In this document: piece by piece, positions 456 to 64,000 of the stretch | Position numbering within the stretch: the stretch's first letter is position 1 | How the letters are laid out: each line of letters begins with the position of its first letter | Assembly (NCBI GenBank): GCA_016790075.1 | Contig: JAEUPP010000035.1 | Location: 24,092 to 88,091 of the forward strand | Direction of reading: 5' to 3' | Source of the DNA: Rhodanobacteraceae bacterium | GTDB taxonomy: Bacteria; Pseudomonadota; Gammaproteobacteria; Xanthomonadales; Rhodanobacteraceae | DNA length: 64,000 nucleotides | Translations under genes and position numbers: made by a program | The notes under the pieces: generated by a model | What the model was told of the DNA's origin: nothing | The model's database searches: none | Seen by the model: only the letters and a program-made list of their open reading frames with translations

Positions 456-2573
456 TCAGGCTGAACCGGCGGCCGGCTGTTGCTCTTCTTCCAGCACCGC
501 CTTGATCGATAGGCGAATACGGCCCTGCTTGTCGACTTCGAGCACCTTGACACGCACGGTATCGCCTTCCTTGAGCTTGTCGGAAACTTTCTCGACGCGC
601 TCGTTGGAGATCTGCGAAACGTGTACCAGACCGTCCTTGCCCGGAAGAATGGTCACGAAGGCGCCGAAGTCCATGAGCTTGGCGACCTTGCCTTCGTAGA
701 TGCGGCCCGGCTCGACATCGGACACGATCATCTCGATGCGCTTCTTCGCCTCATCCGCCGCAGCACGGTTGACCGAGGCGATAACGATGCTGCCGTCATC
801 CTGGATGTCGATGGTGGTGCCAGTTTCTTCGGTAATCGCACGGATGACCGAGCCGCCCTTGCCAATGACTTCGCGGATCTTGTCCGGATGGATACGCATG
901 GTCAGCAGGCGCGGCGCAAATTCACTCATTTCCGAGCGCGCCGAGGTGATGACCTTGTTCATTTCACCGAGGATGTGCAGACGCCCGCGCTTGGCCTGAT
1001 CGAGCGCCACGCGCATGATTTCTTCGGTAATGCCGTCGATCTTGATGTCCATCTGCAGCGCGGAAATACCGTCCTGCGTACCGGCCACCTTGAAGTCCAT
1101 GTCGCCGAGATGGTCCTCATCGCCAAGGATGTCGGACAGCACGACAAAATCGTCGCCTTCCTTGACCAGGCCCATCGCAATACCGGCGACCGGAGCTTTC
1201 AGCGGCACGCCCGCGTCCATCATCGCCAGCGAGGAACCGCAGACCGAAGCCATCGAGGAAGAACCATTCGACTCGGTGATCTCGGAGACCACACGCAGCA
1301 CGTAGGGGAATTCTTCCATCGTCGGCTTGACCGCCTGCACACCACGCTTGGCGAGGCGGCCATGGCCGATTTCGCGGCGCTTGGGGCCGGCCATACGGCC
1401 ACATTCACCGACCGAGAACGGCGGGAAGTTGTAGTGGAACAGGAACGTGTCCTTGGACTCGCCTTCCGGCGCGTCGATGATCTGCGCGTCCTTGGTGGTG
1501 CCCAGCGTGACCGTCACCAGCGCCTGGGTTTCGCCGCGCGTAAACAGCGCCGACCCATGGGTACGCGGCAGTACACCGACGCGGACATCAATGCCACGCA
1601 CCGTATCCAGCGCGCGGCCATCGATGCGGACCTTGGTCTTGAGCACGCCGTCGCGCATCGTGCGGTACTCGATGTCGCCCAGCGCCGCACCGATTTCGCC
1701 ATCGCTCCATTTGTTCGCTGCTGCAGCCTCGGCAACGGCGGCCTTGGCCTCAGTCTTGATGGCGGCCAGGGCATCGCGGCGAGCAAGCTTGTCACGGACC
1801 TGGAACGCTTCGGCCATGCGATTGCCGATCTGGCCTTCCAGCGCTGCGAACAGTGCATCGTTGCGTGCCGGCGCACTCCAGTTGAAAGTCCTGCGTCCCG
1901 CTTCGGCAGCAAAGGCCTCGATCGCGGCGATAGCGCTCTTGAGCGCATTGTGACCAAACGTCACCGCCCCCAGCATGACCTCTTCACTGAGCAGCTTGGC
2001 TTCGGATTCGACCATAAGCACGGCGTTCTGCGTGCCAGCAACTACCAGTTCGAGATCCGAGGTCTTGAGTTCGCTGACACTGGGGTTCAGCACATAATGG
2101 CCGTTGATCACACCGACCTTGGCCGCGCCTATTGGCCCCTTGAATGGCACACCGGCAAGGACGAGTGCCGCGGATGCACCGATCAGCGCCGGAATGTCGC
2201 CGTCGATTTCCGGATTCAGCGACATGACCGTCGCAATGATCTGGATTTCGTTCTTGAACTCTTCCGGGAACAGCGGACGGATAGGACGATCAATCAGGCG
2301 CGAGGTCAGCGTTTCCTTTTCGGTCGGGCGGCCTTCGCGCTTGAAGAAACCACCGGGAATGCGCCCGGCGGAATAGAACTTTTCCTGATAGTCGACGGTG
2401 AGGGGGAAGAAATCCTGTCCCTCGCGCGCCTTGCTGGCTGCTACCGCCGTGACCAGCACGACGGTTCCGCCCATGCTGACCATGACTGCACCGCTAGCCT
2501 GGCGGGCGATTTCGCCCGTTTCCAGCGTGACTTCGTGATTACCGTACTGGAACGACCTGGTTACTTTCGCCAC
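456..2573 (-). CDS. pnp: Polynucleotide phosphorylase
   Basis: 3'-to-5' exoribonuclease that phosphorolyses RNA and can add heteropolymeric tails; in gammaproteobacteria it joins RNase E in the degradosome. The 705 residues match the usual length. Two RNase PH-like domains are separated by an all-alpha linker, followed by a KH domain with [11 protein letters not shown] (about 570-590) and an S1 domain starting [17 protein letters not shown] (about 635 onward). Start is GTG at 2573, preceded by a strong GAGGAG site 6 bases away. It lies 24 bases downstream of rpsO, as in E. coli, so the two are probably cotranscribed. Confidence 0.97.
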
Positions 2574-2597
2574 TGCTATCTCCTCGGTGCGGTTCGC

Positions 2598-2864
2598 TTA
2601 GCGGCGGATGCCGAGGCGGTCAATCAGGGTTTTGTAACGATTGGCGTCTTTGGCCTTGAGATAGGCCAACAGGCGGCGGCGCTGGTTGACCATCTTGAGC
2701 AGGCCGCGGCGGGAGTGGTGATCCTTGGCGTGCTTGGCAAAGTGCTCAGACAGGCTGTCGATGCGGGCCGACAGCAACGCGACCTGGACTTCCGGCGAAC
2801 CGGTGTCGTTCGGCACGCGGCCAAAATCGGCAAGAATTTTCTGGGTTTGTTCGACGTTCAACAT
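2598..2864 (-). CDS. rpsO: 30S ribosomal protein S15
   Basis: Primary 16S rRNA-binding protein of the small-subunit platform. The 88 residues have normal length and the classic order: [29 protein letters not shown] and the C-terminal RRRLLAYLK. It starts at ATG 2864 and sits between truB and pnp as in most gammaproteobacteria. S15 often represses its own translation by binding its leader; the 187-base upstream gap here contains a long hairpin that could serve this role. Confidence 0.97.
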
Positions 2865-2891
2865 TTTTTCGTGACCTTGAAGCTAGACGAG

Positions 2892-2931
2892 GCTTGTACA
2901 GCGCAACTGCGGGCAATGGCGCTGCACAAGC
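2892..2931 (-). promoter_or_regulatory. Hairpin in the rpsO 5' leader
   Basis: On the minus strand GCUUGUGCAGCG (from 2931) pairs over 12 positions with CGCUGUACAAGC (to 2892), with one G-U wobble and a 16-base loop. It ends 27 bases before the rpsO start. A TTGACA hexamer lies just upstream at 2953-2948, but its 17-base-spaced -10 (CTTGTG) is poor, so promoter assignment is weak. A role in S15 autoregulation is inferred from position only. Confidence 0.45.
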
Positions 2932-3051
2932 CCCGCGTGGGATGAATTGTCAAGAGAGCCGCGGGAGTTTAACGCCAGACCCTGCAGCGCAACAAGTCTG
3001 AAAGATTTGGCCGCGACGGAATCTGGCGGCGCGGCACGAAAGGAAAGCGGC

Positions 3052-3993
3052 TCACTCCGGCAGATTCAGCCCACGCCGGACCCGCAATACGCCCACCGCA
3101 TCGACCTCGCCGAGGGCGAGCAGCCGACCGGCCGCGTCCTGTACACGGCAAAGCGCTACCGCTTCGCCAAGATCCCGCACCGGCTGCCCCTGGAGCAGGC
3201 GCTGCGCCTGGACCGCATCGACCTGGCGCAGCGGCAGGGCCGACAGGCCCGCATCGGTTTCCAGCAGCAAAGCGTCCAGGGCCTCGCGACCTTGGCTCAG
3301 CAGCAGCGCTTCCAACTCGTCCAACGTGTGCATGCGTGGTTCACGAAACGGATCAACCCAGGTGCGGCGCAGGGCCGTCAGGTGCGCACCACAACCCAGC
3401 GCCGCGCCGAGGTCACGCGCAAGGCTGCGCACATACGTGCCCGAGCCGCATTCGACGGCGAGCAGCAGGGTATCGCCCTCATGCCGCAACGGTTCGAGCC
3501 GGTGCACGTCGACCTCGCGCGGAGCGGCCGCGACGTCCTCGCCGTCGCGTGCCCGTTTGTACAGCGGTACGCCGCCAAGCTTGATCGCGCTGTAGACCGG
3601 CGGCACCTGGACGATGCGTCCGCGCAACGGGGCCAGCGCCGCCTCGACAAGTGCAGGCGTCAGCGGCGGCACGGCGCGGCGCTCCAGTATGTCGCCCTCT
3701 GCATCGGCCGTGGTCGTCGTCACGCCGAGCTGCACTTCGGCCATGTAGGCCTTGGCCGCACCCAGCAGATAGCCAGCGATTTTGGTCGCTTCGCCAAAAC
3801 ACAACGGCAGCAGCCCGGTCGCCAGAGGATCAAGACTGCCGGTATGCCCGCCCTTGGCCGCGAGAAACAGCCGGCGCGCCTTCTGCAGCGCCTGGTTGGA
3901 ACTTAGCCCACGAGGCTTGTCGAGCAGCAGGATGCCGTGAACATCACGCCAGGGTGTGGTATCTCGTTTCTTGCTCATGGATGTGAAACACAC
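3052..3993 (-). CDS. truB: tRNA pseudouridine(55) synthase
   Basis: Isomerises U55 in the T-loop of most tRNAs. The 313-residue protein has the TruB N-terminal block GILLLDKPRGLSSNQAL and the catalytic motif GSLDPLATG, with the nucleophile Asp at residue 55, followed by a PUA-like C-terminal region. The GTG at 3993 has GAGG seven bases upstream, whereas the ATG at 3978 (MSKKRD...) has no good ribosome site, so the GTG start is preferred; the difference is five residues. It lies 50 bases after rbfA in the rimP-pnp operon. Confidence 0.95.
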   Translation of the reverse strand: MCFTSMSKKRDTTPWRDVHGILLLDKPRGLSSNQALQKARRLFLAAKGGHTGSLDPLATGLLPLCFGEATKIAGYLLGAAKAYMAEVQLGVTTTTADAEGDILERRAVPPLTPALVEAALAPLRGRIVQVPPVYSAIKLGGVPLYKRARDGEDVAAAPREVDVHRLEPLRHEGDTLLLAVECGSGTYVRSLARDLGAALGCGAHLTALRRTWVDPFREPRMHTLDELEALLLSQGREALDALLLETDAGLSALPLRQVDAVQAQRLLQGQPVRDLGEAVALCRVQDAAGRLLALGEVDAVGVLRVRRGLNLPE

Positions 3994-55396: not shown

Positions 55397-55667
55397 CGCG
55401 AGAGACGCGGAATCGCCGACGCTCAGATGCCGGACGCGCGCATCGCCATTCGCCGGCATGAAACCGTTCGACTGCCTTGCCGCGACGTCTATCACCGTGC
55501 CGTTGCGACCCTGTCGTACCGAGCCATCCCTGAGCAGAGCGGCGCGGCGCGCGCGAACCGGCGTGAACGGGCAGGGCGAATGCCGAGTGGGCCGATCTGT
55601 CGCCGGCGCGGCAGGGTCACGGTCGAAACGCCGGAACGGCGCGATGCCGCTCCGGCAACGCAGGAAC

Positions 55668-55946
55668 TTACGGTCCCTTTTGGGAACGGGCTTCCAGCAG
55701 CCCGCGCACATCGCGCGAGAGGATGGCCACGGCTTCGAGGATCCCGCTGGGCGAGTGCGAGTCCGGCGCCTCGAACTCGGCGTCCACGATGGTTTCGCTG
55801 AGTTCCTGGATCGCGGCCAGCCGGGTCATGATCTCGTCATCCAGCGCCTCGCGGTGTTCGCGCGAGTCGAGCACGTACGCGAACATCACCGGATGATCCC
55901 TGCGCGCGTCCAGACGCATCGGATAAAACGAGCCGGTATAGGTCAT
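55668..55946 (-). CDS. Small uncharacterised protein
   Basis: From ATG 55946 (MTYTGSFYPMRLDARRDHP; GGGAGG nine bases upstream) it has 92 residues, acidic and helical (ALDDEIMTRLAAIQELSETIVDAEFEAP, then ILEAVAILSRDVRGLLEA). No signal peptide or known domain. Its ATG overlaps the stop of an upstream 32-codon frame as ATGA, suggesting coupled translation. Confidence 0.55.
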   Translation of the reverse strand: MTYTGSFYPMRLDARRDHPVMFAYVLDSREHREALDDEIMTRLAAIQELSETIVDAEFEAPDSHSPSGILEAVAILSRDVRGLLEARSQKGP

Positions 55947-56041
55947 GGCGCGCGCCTCCCGGACACGGGAACAACGCCGCCAATGCGGACAAGGCAACAA
56001 CAACGCGGCTCAGTGCCGCCAACTGCAGACCGATTTTCCAT
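55943..56041 (-). CDS. Candidate 32-residue leader ORF coupled to the small protein
   Basis: ATG 56041 has GGGAG six bases upstream. The short product (MENRSAVGGTEPRCCCLVR...) contains three consecutive Cys and ends in the ATGA overlap with the 55946 gene. It may be a leader or coupling peptide; no homology is claimed. Confidence 0.4.
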   Translation of the reverse strand: MENRSAVGGTEPRCCCLVRIGGVVPVSGRRAP

Positions 56042-56518
56042 GGACAACTCCCTTTGCGTGGAGTCGCCACCCGGAACGGGGAAAAGGGTGGCGAACGGTG
56101 TGCGGGTAGCAGACCGGGCACGAAGACCGGCGAGCCTTGCGGCTCCCCGCACACCGCCGCCAGAAAGCGGCAGACGGCGTCGCATGAAAATCGGGCATAA
56201 AAAAACGCCGACTCACGGAGCGACGCTTTGCGCGTCGTGCTTTCGGGCTGCTATTCCCGGTTGCCGAATGGGCGGCAACGAGCGGATTGTTTACCTGAGG
56301 GCGGGCGGCGTCAAGGGTGCGGATTCGTCCCCAGCGCGAACCGAGTATATTTTGCTCGCAGGTGAGAGGTTGCGGCTTCCGACGGCAGGCTGAAAGCGCT
56401 GTTGGCTAGGGACGAGGTTCGGTATCGCTATTCGGCACTCTGCGGAAAGTGAACCCGCCGATTTCTTGGGAAGTAAGTCGGCAACAACGCGGCGGCGAGA
56501 AAGATCAGGGGGCAGGCC
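56042..56518. other. Divergent intergenic region upstream of the nuclease gene
   Basis: A 477-base gap between the minus-strand small ORFs and the plus-strand nuclease gene. It must hold promoters for both directions, but I see no convincing -35/-10 pair. An A7 run at about 56199 and short GC repeats are the only visible structure. Confidence 0.4.
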
Positions 56519-58267
56519 ATGGCGTGGATTCTGTTGACCATTGCGCTCATCGCATTGGTGGTCGTGCATCACCGGCGGGTTTCGGACAGCAAGAAGGCAG
56601 CCAAAGCGGCGGAAGAAGCTAAGCGAGACGCTGACGAATCCGCGCATCGCTTTCGACAGCAAATAGAGGCGCTCAACGAAGAGCTGGTCAGCCTGCGTCC
56701 TTTCAAGAACGTTCGCGACGCGATGGCGGCAACCGCCGTTCTTCGCGCGGAAGGGCAGCGAATACTGGAGCACGCGAGGCGGGAAGTTGAAGCGCTGGGA
56801 ATTACCGCCGGGGCAGATGCAAAGCGGATTCGATTCGAGGCGGCGACAGAAGCCAGCCGGATTCTTTCCGAGGCAGCGGCAGAAGCAAGCCGGCTTCGCT
56901 CCGAGTCAGTAGCAGAGTCAAACTCGCTCAAGCTCGACGCGAAAACCTCGCACGCAATGGCCCAAGCGAAGATCGTTTCGCTGATCCAGAGTGCCAATAC
57001 GCGCGCTGAAGCCATCATTGCCGAAGCCGAAGCTCGTGCGAAAGAAGTGGCAGGGGATGCCTATCGCGCGCTGAAAGAAGCGGATCAGCTCAAGCGCGTC
57101 ACAGTAGCAATGGAAAACGTTATCGACGGCTACGGAGATCGCTATCTCGTGCCGACGTGCAGCTTGCTCGATCAACTCGGCGAAACATACGGATTCGATG
57201 AGGCGGGCCGAGAACTGACGGCGTCGAGAGAGATGTCACGTAACCTGGTCACTTCAGGTCGGGCTGCCGAGTGCGACTACGTCGAGACGAATCGCCGCGA
57301 GACCGCATTGCGGTTTGTCCTCGACGCCTTCAACGGCAAAGTCGACACCATTCTGGCGCGCGCCAAGTCCGACAACGCGGGAACACTGGAGCAACGAATC
57401 AAGGACGCTTTCTCACTGGTGAACCACAACGGCGCTGCGTTCCGGAATGCTCGAATCAGTCCGGACTATCTTTCCTCACGACTCAAGGAGCTGAAGTGGG
57501 CGGCGTCGGTACAGGCTCTGAGAGAGCGCGAGAAAGAAGAGCAAAGACGAATCCGCGAACAGATTCGCGAGGAAGAAAAGGCGCAGCGAGAGATTGAGCG
57601 GGCTCTGAAGGACGCAGCCAAGGAGGAGGAATTCTTGCAGAAGGCGCTTCAAAAAGTGCAGGACCAAGTCGCCAAAGCCAACGAAGAGCAGCGTGCAGGA
57701 TTCGAGGAAAAATTACTGGAACTACAAGGCAAGCTGGCTGATGCTGAGGCCAAGAACCAGCGAGCGCTCTCGATGGCTCAGCAGACCAAGGCTGGGCACG
57801 TCTACGTGATTTCAAACGTCGGTTCATTCGGCGAGGACGTCTTGAAAGTTGGAATGACAAGACGTCTGGAGCCAGCGGATCGTATTCGCGAACTGGGCGA
57901 CGCGAGCGTGCCGTTCGGTTTCGACATTCACGCAATGATCTGGACGGACGACGCGCCTGCCTTGGAGCGAGAACTGCATAGGCGCTTCGTTCGAAGCCAA
58001 ATCAACAAGGTCAATCCGCGCAAGGAGTTCTTTCGCATCCCTTTGAGCGCGGTAAGAGAATCCGTGAGCACGATGGGGCTCGAGGCCGTCTGGACAATCA
58101 GTGCCGAGGCGACTCAGTATCGCGAAACGCTGGCCATCGAGAAGTCGCTGCAGGCCAATACTCCCGCCGCTCAAGACTGGTTGAGGGGGCAATTGCAATT
58201 CAATCCAGATATTGTTTCCGATGTTGCGGAAAGCGACCCGGGCGTCGGCGAGGCAGCAATGGTATAG
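56519..58267 (+). CDS. Membrane-anchored DUF4041-GIY-YIG nuclease (SNIPE-like)
   Basis: The 582 residues comprise one N-terminal membrane helix (about 3-16), a long Ala/Glu coiled coil (about 20-190), a DUF4041-type region (about 195-345), a second coiled coil (about 345-425) and a T5orf172/Mug113 GIY-YIG nuclease domain (about 425-520) with HVYVIS, KVGMTRR and the Glu of ALERELHRRF. This is the architecture of SNIPE, a membrane nuclease reported to cut phage DNA during injection. Function here is inferred. It is followed by a TIR gene; codon use is less GC-rich than in the backbone. Confidence 0.8.
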   Translation: MAWILLTIALIALVVVHHRRVSDSKKAAKAAEEAKRDADESAHRFRQQIEALNEELVSLRPFKNVRDAMAATAVLRAEGQRILEHARREVEALGITAGADAKRIRFEAATEASRILSEAAAEASRLRSESVAESNSLKLDAKTSHAMAQAKIVSLIQSANTRAEAIIAEAEARAKEVAGDAYRALKEADQLKRVTVAMENVIDGYGDRYLVPTCSLLDQLGETYGFDEAGRELTASREMSRNLVTSGRAAECDYVETNRRETALRFVLDAFNGKVDTILARAKSDNAGTLEQRIKDAFSLVNHNGAAFRNARISPDYLSSRLKELKWAASVQALREREKEEQRRIREQIREEEKAQREIERALKDAAKEEEFLQKALQKVQDQVAKANEEQRAGFEEKLLELQGKLADAEAKNQRALSMAQQTKAGHVYVISNVGSFGEDVLKVGMTRRLEPADRIRELGDASVPFGFDIHAMIWTDDAPALERELHRRFVRSQINKVNPRKEFFRIPLSAVRESVSTMGLEAVWTISAEATQYRETLAIEKSLQANTPAAQDWLRGQLQFNPDIVSDVAESDPGVGEAAMV

Positions 58268-58676
58268 GGTCTCTGCGCGCGTTTAAAGGGAAAAGTTATC
58301 GGTCAAGAATGCTTAGATTAGAATATAGTAATTTACACTTGTCGTTAATGTAGATATAAAAACAAATGTAATCGTGGTCTGGTTGGCTTTCGTGGAGTTT
58401 CAATGAGGCTGGAATTTGACCTGGTCCCGTTATTCTGAGAAGTCCCGGATTGCGCGTCACGTCCGCCTCATCCGTTATGCCTTCATCCTGCCGTACTAAC
58501 TCAGACGATCCGCCATTGCCGAAGTAACGGAGGTGTCGTGGACAAGCCATGCGCTGGAGAGCGTCGAAGAATGGCGCAGCGGTTAGTAGGAGCGTTCTTG
58601 AGATTCAGGTGATACTGGAAATATTGTGCCCCGATCTGGGGTGTGAATTGAAATTGGATACGGGAACTCAAACATC
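58268..58676. other. AT-rich spacer in the candidate defence island
   Basis: 409 bases, with 58300-58380 markedly AT-rich (for example TAGAATATAGTAATTTACAC) against a GC-rich genome. No gene is supported. It may hold the promoter of the TIR gene and signals recent acquisition. Confidence 0.55.
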
Positions 58677-59552
58677 ATGCGCAATAGCATCTTCCTCAGC
58701 CACAACGAGGCAGACAAGCCATTTGCCCGACGCCTCGCGGCAGATCTTGAACACCAAGGAATCCGATGCTGGCTGGATGAAGCCGAGATCAGGGTCGGCG
58801 AGTCCCTGATCGAGAAGATTCGGGACGGAATCGACAACATGGAGTATGTGGTCGTAATCCTGTCGCCAGACTCCGTTGCTTCACCGTGGGTGCAGCGCGA
58901 GGTTGATGTCGCTATGAATCAGGAGATTCAAGGTCGTCGCGTGAAGGTTCTTCCCGTCATGTACCGAGAGTGCGCCTTGCCCGGCTTTCTTCTTGGTAAG
59001 AAGTACGCGAACTTCACCGAGAGCGCGAAGTACGACGCGGCGTTCGAGGGACTCGTCAAGGATATTGGGGTTGTATTCAATAGACGCGCGTTCAATCCTG
59101 ATGGGGCAGCCGGGACTCTCGGCCGTGCCTTGGACAAAGCGTGGAAGGGTGCACTTCCGGTGCTGTTTCGGCCCTTCCATCGACCGTTCCAGTACATCGG
59201 GATGTCGATTCAAGACGCTGCACGGGCTACTGACGGTACGCCCAATGACGTTGGGAACATCATCATCGACACCGATGACTGCCACATGTGTCTTACCGCC
59301 GAAGGAAACTACGTCAGCTTCGTCGAAGTTGATCTGAAAGCCACCGCACCACACTACCAGAATCAAGAGTTCGACTCAGAGGCCGTTCTCGGCGCGTTTA
59401 GCGTGGGATTGAACGAACTGGAACTGGTCCGGAAGCAGACTCACTGCCATACCTACTACGACCACAAGAAGAGACTCAAGATCACCGTTTCCTGTCTCTA
59501 CGACGAGGCTCCGATTTCAGTCGGGTTTGGTTCCAAGTATTACGGCATGTGA
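58677..59552 (+). CDS. TIR-domain protein with uncharacterised C-terminal domain
   Basis: The N-terminal TIR domain (about 1-130) has SIFLSHNEADKPFARRL (box 1), CWLDEAEIRVGESL and SPWVQRE, where Glu75 aligns with the catalytic glutamate of NAD+-cleaving TIRs (Glu642 in SARM1). Residues 150-291 form a second domain with Cys/His-containing stretches (DTDDCHMCLTAEGNYV, KQTHCHTYYDHKKRL) that I do not recognise and that may sense a trigger. Bacterial TIR proteins often serve in abortive phage defence. The ribosome site is weak (GGGAAC). Lower GC than the backbone. Confidence 0.85.
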   Translation: MRNSIFLSHNEADKPFARRLAADLEHQGIRCWLDEAEIRVGESLIEKIRDGIDNMEYVVVILSPDSVASPWVQREVDVAMNQEIQGRRVKVLPVMYRECALPGFLLGKKYANFTESAKYDAAFEGLVKDIGVVFNRRAFNPDGAAGTLGRALDKAWKGALPVLFRPFHRPFQYIGMSIQDAARATDGTPNDVGNIIIDTDDCHMCLTAEGNYVSFVEVDLKATAPHYQNQEFDSEAVLGAFSVGLNELELVRKQTHCHTYYDHKKRLKITVSCLYDEAPISVGFGSKYYGM

Positions 59553-59752: not shown

Positions 59753-60646
59753 ATGAGCAGTAAATTCAAGGTCCTGGCCGCTTTCGCGGCCATGTTCTTT
59801 GTCGGTCATGCCGCCCACGCCGCAACCGTACAGTGCGTCAACTGCAGCGATGCGCAGCTATACAATACGGCCCGCACGCTCGGCGCGAGTTCGACGGCTC
59901 ACATCGTTTGGGATCCAGCCGATGGCGACGTAAGGCGTTACCGCAACTATTGCGGCTCTGCCCCTAATGGCACGTCACCGGGTACGAAATCCAGCACGAC
60001 GACGGCGGCTGCCTGCAACTTGCAGACCGAAGAGCATCAGGTCACGTCCGAGCTGGTCGGCGTCGCTAGTGCCATGAGCCAGATTTGGCGGCACACCGGC
60101 GGCACGTTCAAGGCCGACATTACCGCCGAGATTGGTGGTATCTCTTACCCCTCCTACTACCCGCGCAAGCCGAGCGCACACGATTTTCAGACGGATTTGC
60201 AGCTTCAGGGGGAAATTCTCGACCTGGCCAGCACCGAAGACATTTTCGGCTATTCCACGTCCTCCCTGGGCACAGCTCTAACGTTTATCGGCTCACACAT
60301 CGATGCTTTCCTGTCGATGAAGCAGGGCGTTTTCGTCACCATCAGACTCAAGTTCCTTGACGGTTCCAGCGTCAAGGTGCTGGTCAAGCTCGGCGAGGTA
60401 ACGACCTACGTCAAGAACACGGCCCGCGACAGTAGTGGCCATGTCCTTCCCGACCCGGACTACGGCACGCCTGCCTACCCTGGCCGCTGGAACTTCGCAC
60501 CGGGGCAAAGCAGCGACATGACCCAGTTCATCGAGTACATGCGCTCCCTTGGCGTGACAATCACTAACGGCCAGTTGCCGAACGGCCAAGTCAATTGCGT
60601 CTGGACGTCGACCAACAACACGACGACGTGCTATATCCCGCGCTAA
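59753..60646 (+). CDS. Secreted protein of unknown function
   Basis: The 297 residues begin with a signal peptide (about 1-23, HAAHAA) and a CVNCSD motif just after it, with further Cys in YCGSAP, AACNLQ and the C-terminal VNCVWTSTNNTTTCYIPR, suggesting disulfides. No domain is recognised. AATGGAG precedes ATG 59753 and an intrinsic terminator follows, so it is a monocistronic unit. Confidence 0.7.
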   Translation: MSSKFKVLAAFAAMFFVGHAAHAATVQCVNCSDAQLYNTARTLGASSTAHIVWDPADGDVRRYRNYCGSAPNGTSPGTKSSTTTAAACNLQTEEHQVTSELVGVASAMSQIWRHTGGTFKADITAEIGGISYPSYYPRKPSAHDFQTDLQLQGEILDLASTEDIFGYSTSSLGTALTFIGSHIDAFLSMKQGVFVTIRLKFLDGSSVKVLVKLGEVTTYVKNTARDSSGHVLPDPDYGTPAYPGRWNFAPGQSSDMTQFIEYMRSLGVTITNGQLPNGQVNCVWTSTNNTTTCYIPR

Positions 60647-60754: not shown

Positions 60755-60889
60755 TCACACCCCCTCAACCGGGCACCCCACCTCAGCCCTCCTGGCCCGC
60801 ACCAACGCCGGCAAACACTCCACCAGAAAATCCGCAACCGCCCGCACGGCCGGCAGCCTTCCACGGCGCGACAGATAGACCAGATGCAG
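60755..60889 (-). pseudogene. C-terminal fragment of a LysR-type regulator
   Basis: On the minus strand LHLVYLSRRGRLPAVRAVAD and FLVECLPALVRA form the end of a LysR substrate-binding domain, running to TGA 60757-60755. Everything upstream is replaced at about 60890 by the transposase-associated repeat. It has no start or DNA-binding domain. Confidence 0.6.
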
Positions 60890-60894
60890 GAACA

Positions 60895-61032
60895 CGCAAG
60901 GACACCCACAATATCTCACCCAACCGCAGGTCATCTGCCATCGGCGAGATTGTGTGGCCAGCCTGTCGAGTCAGGCCCACGGCGAATAAGCTTCGCCCGC
61001 AGTTGATCCTCGATCGCGCGCTTCAGATATCC
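60895..61032 (-). repeat. 137-bp transposase-associated sequence, copy A
   Basis: Runs from CAAGGACACCCACAAT to CGCTTCAGATATCC and is colinear, with many substitutions in the middle, with 63864-64000. It directly follows a transposase-like remnant on the minus strand and abuts the LysR fragment, so it looks like the 3' end of a mobile element. Confidence 0.65.
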
Positions 61033-61345
61033 GGATCACTCGGGTTCACCGGATTTTCTCAAGCCACCGGGCAAAACCAATGCCACGCAGCCACCGCTGA
61101 CCCAGATCTCCGGCCGTAGCAATCAGATCCTGGGCATCTCCCACGACACGCCAGTAGCGCGAACCCACTGCCTTGACGCGTACCGGCCAGCGGCCAGTGC
61201 TCTTCTCGATTCGCCGGACGATCAGTGGCGCCTCTTCGGAAACAGTCCCGCACGTGCCATCCCTCAGCTGCCTTGCGGTCCACTCCACCAGTTCCAGATA
61301 GTCACGCAACCGGATGCCCGGCTGCGCCGGCGAGATCGTCGCCAC
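60971..61345 (-). pseudogene. C-terminal remnant of a Y1/REP-type transposase-like gene
   Basis: RLRDYLELVEWTARQLRDG, EEAPLIVRRIEKSTGRWPVR and DLGQRWLRGIGFARWLEKIR resemble the C-terminal part of tyrosine-type REP-associated transposases of Xanthomonadales. A TGA at 61048-61046 follows, but the frame can be read on as ISEARDRGSTAGEAYSPWA to TGA 60973-60971, matching the partial frame at the window edge. The Tyr/HUH catalytic part is absent, so this is a decayed copy. Confidence 0.5.
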
Positions 61346-63732: not shown

Positions 63733-63863
63733 GGTTCCCTCCGTTCGAGATACGCGACGACTCGATTGCCGCCTGGCTCCAAGGGTACAAGCCCAATTCG
63801 CGGGGCGCCCACCCGGTGTCGCCTAAGGAGACTCAAGGACACCCACGACAAGGCTCTAAGACT

Positions 63864-64000
63864 CAAGGACACCCACAATACCCTATCCAACGACGATTCA
63901 TCCGCCACCGTCATCGGGACGGAGGCCGGTTTATCGAGTCAGGCCCACAGCGAATAAGCTTCGCCCACACTTGATCCTCGCTCGCGCGCTTCAGATATCC
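63864..64000 (-). repeat. 137-bp transposase-associated sequence, copy B (cut by window edge)
   Basis: Second copy of the sequence at 60895-61032, in the same orientation. At its outer end ACTCAAGGACACCCAC occurs twice, at 63831 and 63861. Confidence 0.65.
63939..64000 (-). CDS. C-terminal end of a transposase-like gene, cut by window edge
   Basis: On the minus strand the frame ISEARERGSSVGEAYSLWA runs from the edge to TGA 63941-63939. The same tail, with five changes, follows the transposase remnant at 60971. The body of the gene would lie beyond 64000. Assignment rests on this paralogy alone. Confidence 0.35.
   Translation of the reverse strand, partial: ISEARERGSSVGEAYSLWA

Follow-up and report, generated by a model that had tools for sequence, protein, structure and literature searches.

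A SNIPE homologue and a TIR protein with a conserved C-terminal module, two putative and probably independent anti-phage genes side by side in a Rhodanobacteraceae genome

In a 64,000-nucleotide stretch of Rhodanobacteraceae bacterium DNA (GenBank assembly GCA_016790075.1, contig JAEUPP010000035.1, positions 24,092 to 88,091 of the forward strand), the whole of which we call the window, two open reading frames (ORFs) follow each other on the plus strand: the first, at 56519..58267, encodes a 582-residue homologue of the nuclease SNIPE, and the second, at 58677..59552, a 291-residue TIR protein composed of a TIR domain (residues 5-127) and a conserved C-terminal module (residues ~147-291; 59115..59549, plus strand). 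An earlier note on this DNA, made from the letters alone, had located both ORFs on one strand with an AT-rich spacer between them, as we also find (58268..58676; 409 bp, 47.4% guanine plus cytosine [GC]), and had raised, while leaving it open, the possibility of a two-gene anti-phage island. We consider it probable that the window contains instead two independent anti-phage genes in one variable chromosomal site, namely a SNIPE and a stand-alone TIR effector with an exchangeable module. The pairing of the two genes is local and not recurrent, because co-location was absent when sought from either side and because each gene occurs separately within the genus; and the C-terminal module, which the earlier note did not mention, is the more novel part of the locus.

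The SNIPE homologue

The 582-residue protein matched the Pfam families MUG113 (E value 1e-16), T5orf172 (2.8e-15), and DUF4041 (5.3e-15), the DUF4041 domain covering residues 266-321 (57314..57481, plus strand) and the GIY-YIG nuclease domain (T5orf172/MUG113) residues 426-517 (57794..58069, plus strand); the PADLOC profile PD-Lambda-1 matched with an E value of 2e-113 over residues 125-547. Residues 1-19 are strongly hydrophobic (mean Kyte-Doolittle value 1.9), which hydropathy points to a putative membrane anchor, and the protein also has coiled-coil-like stretches and a long charged linker between DUF4041 and GIY-YIG. The SNIPE-like architecture recognized in the earlier note—a hydrophobic N-terminus, DUF4041, and GIY-YIG in a single protein—was thus confirmed, the profile search proposed there having matched both DUF4041 and T5orf172/MUG113. 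In an alignment of eight sequences, the window protein and seven plasmid homologues, residues of the GIY-YIG domain including R455, E483, and N499 were invariant. Glu483 is the putative catalytic residue, and would correspond to E414 of the Escherichia coli SNIPE.

As described by Saxton et al. (2026; PMC13190303), SNIPE is anchored in the membrane, binds DNA through DUF4041, and uses its GIY-YIG nuclease to cut phage DNA during injection. Because of the Pfam and PADLOC matches, the conserved residues, and the agreement with this published architecture, we take the window protein to be a SNIPE, and hence a further member of an already described kind. DUF4041 was found in 3 of 274 genomes of the class, the window's genome included, and no SNIPE relatives were found in a scan of viral_contigs. 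At SNIPE loci elsewhere, the gene lies near genes annotated as a Qat anti-phage system in a Hymenobacter (L113), near a DUF4365 protein that gives no match to the C-terminal module of the TIR protein in a Pantoea (L115), and near a NERD-domain protein in a Vibrio (L116).

The TIR protein and its family

The 291-residue protein matched the Pfam family TIR_2 with an E value of 4.6e-32 over residues 5-127, and its Glu75, which the earlier note had regarded as an intact catalytic residue, is indeed present in all 28 full-length sequences (the window protein plus 27 relatives). Since a glutamate is generally known to be the catalytic residue in the TIR enzymes that hydrolyse nicotinamide-adenine dinucleotide (NADases), Glu75 is the putative catalytic residue here. 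The PDB sequence matches were led by AbTIR (residues 4-103), with Cat1 in fourth place, and none of the 21 matches listed extended past residue 155.

When genome_contigs, in which each of 84,980 species is represented by one genome, was scanned with aligned TIR relatives, 46 loci with flanks of at most 10 kb emerged, to which four from plasmid, viral, and congener sources were added; the resulting 50 correspond to 49 distinct loci, L049 and L100 being the same place. A full-length TIR protein with the module was encoded in 26 of the 46, with 54-76% identity to the window protein—which aligns end to end with its relatives—and in carriers belonging to the Pseudomonadota, Thermodesulfobacteriota, Cyanobacteriota, and Bacteroidota. 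The other 20 comprised 13 loci with the module but without TIR, five TIR copies that are incomplete or damaged (an interrupted one in L087, two at contig ends in L088 and L089, an N-terminally short one in L090, and a degraded one in L100), one zinc-ribbon form (L105), and one fragment (L106). Among plasmid records, 163 had a TIR match, and two examples (H1 and H2) were examined.

When the ORFs lying up to 6 kb from the 50 loci were clustered, no recurrent partner emerged (25 clusters listed); the clusters that reached the most loci were those of ABC-type ATPases (6 loci), recombinases (5), and DEAD-box helicases (4). Among the 128 neighbour ORFs of 27 TIR loci we counted three phage-integrase, two RhuM, and three AAA_21 matches, while PADLOC matched 133 models to the same ORFs, led by mad3 and PDC-S05.

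At individual loci, the TIR relative of an IMG/VR contig (L048, 6177-8876) lies beside recombinase-like ORFs and follows ORFs with the look of an MqsR/MqsA toxin-antitoxin pair. In two cyanobacteria (L064, 10001-13551; L065, 10001-14055) the TIR gene adjoins nifD- and nifH-looking ORFs, and both the nitrogenase component 1 family and the NifH family were matched twice among the neighbour ORFs. Two Nostoc (L035 and L087) have an interrupted TIR gene, with ORFs that look by eye like transposases in the gap of L035. The bSEFIR profile match of L065 reaches residue 239, beyond the TIR domain; a literature search combining bSEFIR, phage, and TIR returned no paper.

Occurrence of the two genes together and apart

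At the 50 TIR-family or module loci, 35 of which include at least 5 kb on both sides, tblastn at E ≤ 1e-3 found no SNIPE; the same search does recover SNIPE in 10 other SNIPE loci, eight of them on plasmids with 6-kb flanks and two chromosomal with ~1.5-kb flanks. From the opposite side, the best TIR-family match in those 10 loci had an E value of 0.009 over 40 residues (L113), so that none reached E ≤ 1e-3, and the annotation of the eight plasmid loci, an incomplete gene table with several hypothetical proteins, names no TIR protein. Co-location thus failed to appear in either direction, the two-gene anti-phage island that the earlier note had left open finds no parallel among these loci, and on this ground, together with the genome-level search described next, we rejected an operon or two-gene system.

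Whole genomes led to a similar picture. We searched the hosts of 37 of the 46 loci together with the window's own genome (G000), a set of 38 genomes whose completeness is unstated and which leaves aside the hosts of L087-L090, L093, L099, L100, L106, and L107. DUF4041 was found in two of them: in G000 and in G864, the host of L076, where it is located on a 465-kb contig and the TIR gene on a 363-kb contig; the 18 kb surrounding that DUF4041 gene contained no TIR-family match (best E value 0.21). Co-occurrence in related genomes, the absence of which the earlier note had named beforehand as speaking against the island, was therefore largely wanting, being limited to one of the 37 other hosts, on a separate contig.

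Within the genus each gene occurs without the other, since one congener (G036) has a SNIPE remnant and no TIR protein and another (G014) a TIR relative and no SNIPE. In G036 a truncated SNIPE start is situated behind the same ~700-bp repeat that precedes the window's pair (a 1204-nt alignment to window 55626-56791, at 70%), and the whole genome gave no TIR-protein match; in G014 a degraded relative of the TIR protein lies at another site, and the whole genome gave no SNIPE match. These damaged relatives speak for a decayed or silent locus, consisting of two acquired genes without present function; against this possibility, both window frames are full length and have kept the residues that are invariant in their relatives, and the TIR protein shows the end-to-end alignment described above, so that we regard decay as quite improbable.

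A single two-gene defence, in which SNIPE would cut DNA at the membrane and, should that fail, the TIR protein would disable the cell as a back-up, would account for the adjacency of the two genes, their common strand, their full length, and a GC content below the window mean in both. That reading is nevertheless made very unlikely by the absence of SNIPE from the 50 TIR-family or module loci and of TIR matches from the 10 SNIPE loci, by the solitary DUF4041 among the 37 other hosts, by the occurrence of each gene alone within the genus, and by a 409-bp spacer containing a weak promoter-like match of its own. Our literature searches, conducted mostly without subscription journals, returned no title or abstract describing a SNIPE-TIR pairing, and the word TIR is absent from the main text of the SNIPE paper (PMC13190303).

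The C-terminal module

Residues ~147-291 of the TIR protein gave no match in Pfam or PHROGs, and a hidden-Markov-model search of the PDB sequences with the module returned nothing below an E value of 0.9; nor did the literature searches return a title or abstract describing it. The module tree and both structure alignments were based on 40 rows—the window protein, L048, the 26 full-length relatives, 11 of the 13 TIR-less loci (L093 and L107 being left out), and L105—across which the invariant residues include P166, R169, P170, Q172, Y173, N190, E209, and G210 as well as F232, Y260, D262, K268, and K287. The module profile matched 2 of 398 genomes of the phylum, the window's genome and G014. 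The module is conserved and rare, and is present in four phyla.

The 13 loci in which the module occurs without TIR are all cyanobacterial. Nine of them contain open frames of 316-319 residues that by eye have an N-terminal part in common, the other four, L093, L097, L099, and L107, being of reduced length, atypical, or broken. The two cyanobacterial fusions put to Pfam matched DUF4365 (2.9e-14 and 2.3e-14), and PADLOC matched the DUF4365 part to an Argonaute-associated restriction endonuclease (1e-9). In the module tree, the 11 rows labelled as DUF4365 type, which are the nine open frames together with L097 and L099, group as a single clade (100/99). The L105 protein, from a Crenothrix, combines the module with a zinc ribbon, scoring below the Pfam cut-off, and with a hydrophobic segment recognized by eye. 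The tree departs from taxonomy in places: the Reinekea module is identical to that of a gammaproteobacterial metagenome-assembled genome from another record, and a Flammeovirgaceae metagenome-assembled genome groups with gammaproteobacteria (90/94); many of the deeper forks are weak, with 12 of 36 inner branches drawn open.

For the module alone, AlphaFold2 predicted a confident alpha/beta fold (predicted local distance difference test 90.1, predicted template-modelling score 0.83), and for the whole TIR protein a predicted template-modelling score of 0.51, with the placement of the module relative to the TIR domain uncertain. A Foldseek search with the module alone gave weak PDB matches to 4h0a (E value 4e-4) and 4ifa (1e-3), which are proteins with an SCP domain, and to 4ygt (0.03), a DUF4309 protein, along with a weak match to the phage zinc-ribbon protein A0A8S5S7E6 (2e-5, TMq 0.58); these structure matches are kept as leads only.

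The module might be, rather than a sensor, an oligomerisation or localisation domain, with sensing left to an unlinked factor of the host or the phage. Rapid evolution is common in phage-sensing domains, whereas the module is conserved about as strongly as the TIR part (mean pairwise identities of 64% and 67%, respectively, over 28 sequences), and the zinc ribbon and hydrophobic segment that accompany it in L105 would suit such a role as well. We nonetheless consider this alternative rather unlikely, in that varied effectors on a constant module are the pattern of a recognition module, as exemplified by APAZ (PMC10810196).

The site and its repeats

The SNIPE gene (57.7% GC) and the TIR gene (55.1%) both fall below the mean of the window (61.7%), as the earlier note had reported, although their ranks among same-size stretches of the window (approximately the 7th and 5th percentile, respectively) are low and not extreme. 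Between positions 56300 and 59800 we found three promoter-like sites, two of which overlap just 5' of the TIR gene, versus 1.4 expected; the match in the spacer ahead of the TIR gene (58598-58627) is consequently graded as weak.

Directly upstream of the pair lies a genus-specific repeat of ~700 bp (55626..56344, minus strand), containing a small minus-strand ORF at 55668-56003. Long copies are present in five of the eight genomes of the genus searched; the stretches examined contain 23, the window's included, from G000, G014, G036, G065, and G079, the copies elsewhere (L050-L061 and L130-L139) also containing the small minus-strand ORF. For 117 ORFs situated no more than 5 kb from 22 of the copies, the PADLOC matches include the BREX-like PglZ, BrxHI, and BrxA, along with PDC candidates, a type IIG enzyme, and a type I specificity subunit, and the Pfam matches there include McrBC and MmeI domains; named places are PglZ in L060, a PDC-S13/specificity-type protein in L059, and a type II restriction enzyme match in L134. 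Seven of ten singled-out repeat-flanking proteins had no PADLOC match at 1e-10. Two assignments made by eye, of L059:2827-5907 as a type III restriction subunit and of L054:5475-9416 or 1937-3976 as defence-like ATPases, were dropped when PADLOC gave no support at the same threshold.

The repeat-flanking ORFs matched 100 PADLOC models versus 32 for 75 control ORFs, for which ten stretches had been picked arbitrarily in three genomes of the genus; model counts overstate the number of distinct genes, 25 models were listed per batch, and the control set is small. Among the control models listed (25), PD-T4-6 predominated, accompanied by mad6, C3a189, and MkoA, at two ORFs each. Because of the inflation of the counts, the partial listings, and the small control, the repeat could mark capture sites of defence genes as a lead, and not as a demonstrated hotspot.

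To the right of the pair, a 297-residue protein with a secreted-looking N-terminus (59753..60646, plus strand) had no Pfam match and has relatives in six of the eight genomes of the genus; 3 of its 11 listed matches, the window's included, follow a repeat copy of like orientation at a downstream distance of at most ~5 kb. Further downstream, a second repeat family (60880-61040 and 63858-64000) gave seven matches in this genome, and a search of three congeners found none. The earlier note had placed the pair among mobile-element debris, of which description the part that stands is the flanking by two repeat families; no transposase family was found among the six neighbouring ORFs scanned with Pfam. 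Our preferred reading of SNIPE and the TIR gene is that of two cargo genes occupying a single variable site next to the ~700-bp repeat.

Proposed explanation

By analogy with the E. coli protein, the window SNIPE would be an inner-membrane-anchored GIY-YIG nuclease acting on incoming DNA: its DUF4041 would contact the incoming phage DNA and the tape-measure protein, and the DNA would be cut during injection. The TIR protein would act alone, the module at residues 147-291 sensing an infection cue, upon which the TIR domains would assemble and hydrolyse NAD+ through Glu75, so that the infected cell would stop growing or die in an abortive-type response; in the cyanobacterial proteins that join the module to DUF4365, the cell would instead be disabled by DNA cleavage. 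Both genes would have been captured at the same site beside the genus-specific repeat, and would thereby be neighbours without forming one system.

The exchange of effectors that this model contains takes as its analogy the pattern of APAZ, which carries TIR, SIR2, DUF4365, or other nuclease domains (PMC10810196), TIR and DUF4365 being alternative partners of that module in short Argonaute systems. We propose, tentatively, that the window TIR protein belongs to a one-gene anti-phage family in which a recognition module of ~145 residues has moved between phyla with alternative killing domains, as an Argonaute-free parallel to the APAZ exchange. The killing domains proposed for that family are a TIR NADase in most instances, a DUF4365 nuclease of the PD-(D/E)XK type in cyanobacteria, and a zinc-ribbon/membrane form in the one Crenothrix.

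Several points weigh against this explanation as a whole. The low-complexity filter of tblastn misses N-terminal SNIPE remnants such as the one in L050; the plasmid SNIPE loci are a sample of 8 from 186 records with a match; and the two genes may still be paired among close strains of this species, the collections comprising one genome per species. The 128 neighbour ORFs of the TIR loci also include housekeeping families, and the sets had no matched control, so that the defence context is only suggestive. The exchange between TIR and DUF4365 is explained by one event, not many, since the DUF4365-type rows form a single clade. Finally, the best PDB structure match of the module (E value 4e-4, TM-score 0.39) is weak and names no ligand.

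As the pair looks coincidental, the search for a joint mechanism can be spared. The constant module on two unrelated effector domains provides a handle on what a stand-alone TIR protein senses, because the NADase and nuclease versions can be faced with the same phages in the search for a common trigger. The ~700-bp repeat, for its part, may be of use in cataloguing other defence genes of the genus.

Comparison with known systems

One might also suppose that the TIR protein is half of a known multi-gene system—Thoeris, or a short Argonaute system such as SPARTA—and that its partner is no longer present or is encoded at another place. PADLOC profiles for ThsB and for TIR-type Argonaute-associated proteins do match it, and a Foldseek search with the whole model returned TIR domains that include SPARTA TIR-APAZ chains and SpbK. 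However, the profile matches are confined to the TIR part. Piwi (PF02171) had no match in the window's genome and matched in 5 of the 38 host genomes, four of these over the cut-off; the Thoeris partner families SIR2, SLOG, and Macro were absent from the six other ORFs scanned (a selection of those between 52.0 and 63.7 kb, the rest of the genome being outside that search); and the family loci have no recurrent neighbour. Membership in Thoeris was rejected for want of an adjacent ThsA-type partner among those six ORFs, and membership in SPARTA for want of a Piwi-domain partner in the genome. Taken together, these results leave the idea of a multi-gene half very improbable, and Argonaute does not seem to be involved with the TIR protein, because Piwi is missing from this genome and present in so few hosts.

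With SNIPE (PD-lambda-1) the window protein has in common the N-terminal hydrophobic segment, DUF4041, and GIY-YIG with its conserved residues, and differs from it by a long N-terminal part of its own, which difference is ordinary variation, since PMC13190303 describes the N-terminal region as the variable one. The likeness to the short Argonaute effectors (TIR-APAZ and DUF4365-APAZ) consists in a constant module with a TIR or a DUF4365 nuclease domain; the window genome differs in having no Piwi match, and the module, without a Pfam match, has APAZ homology only as a candidate. Alignments of the whole model to TIR-APAZ chains mostly have a root-mean-square deviation above 20, and among the 50 Foldseek matches listed, of 928, for the module alone there is no APAZ chain. 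The TIR protein represents a family that has no name as yet and whose effector can be exchanged, which makes it a variant of an already described type. It shares with the TIR NADases AbTIR (7uwg, 8g83), Cat1 (9mud), and SpbK (9phb) a TIR domain with a putative catalytic glutamate, and is set apart from all of them by its C-terminal module.

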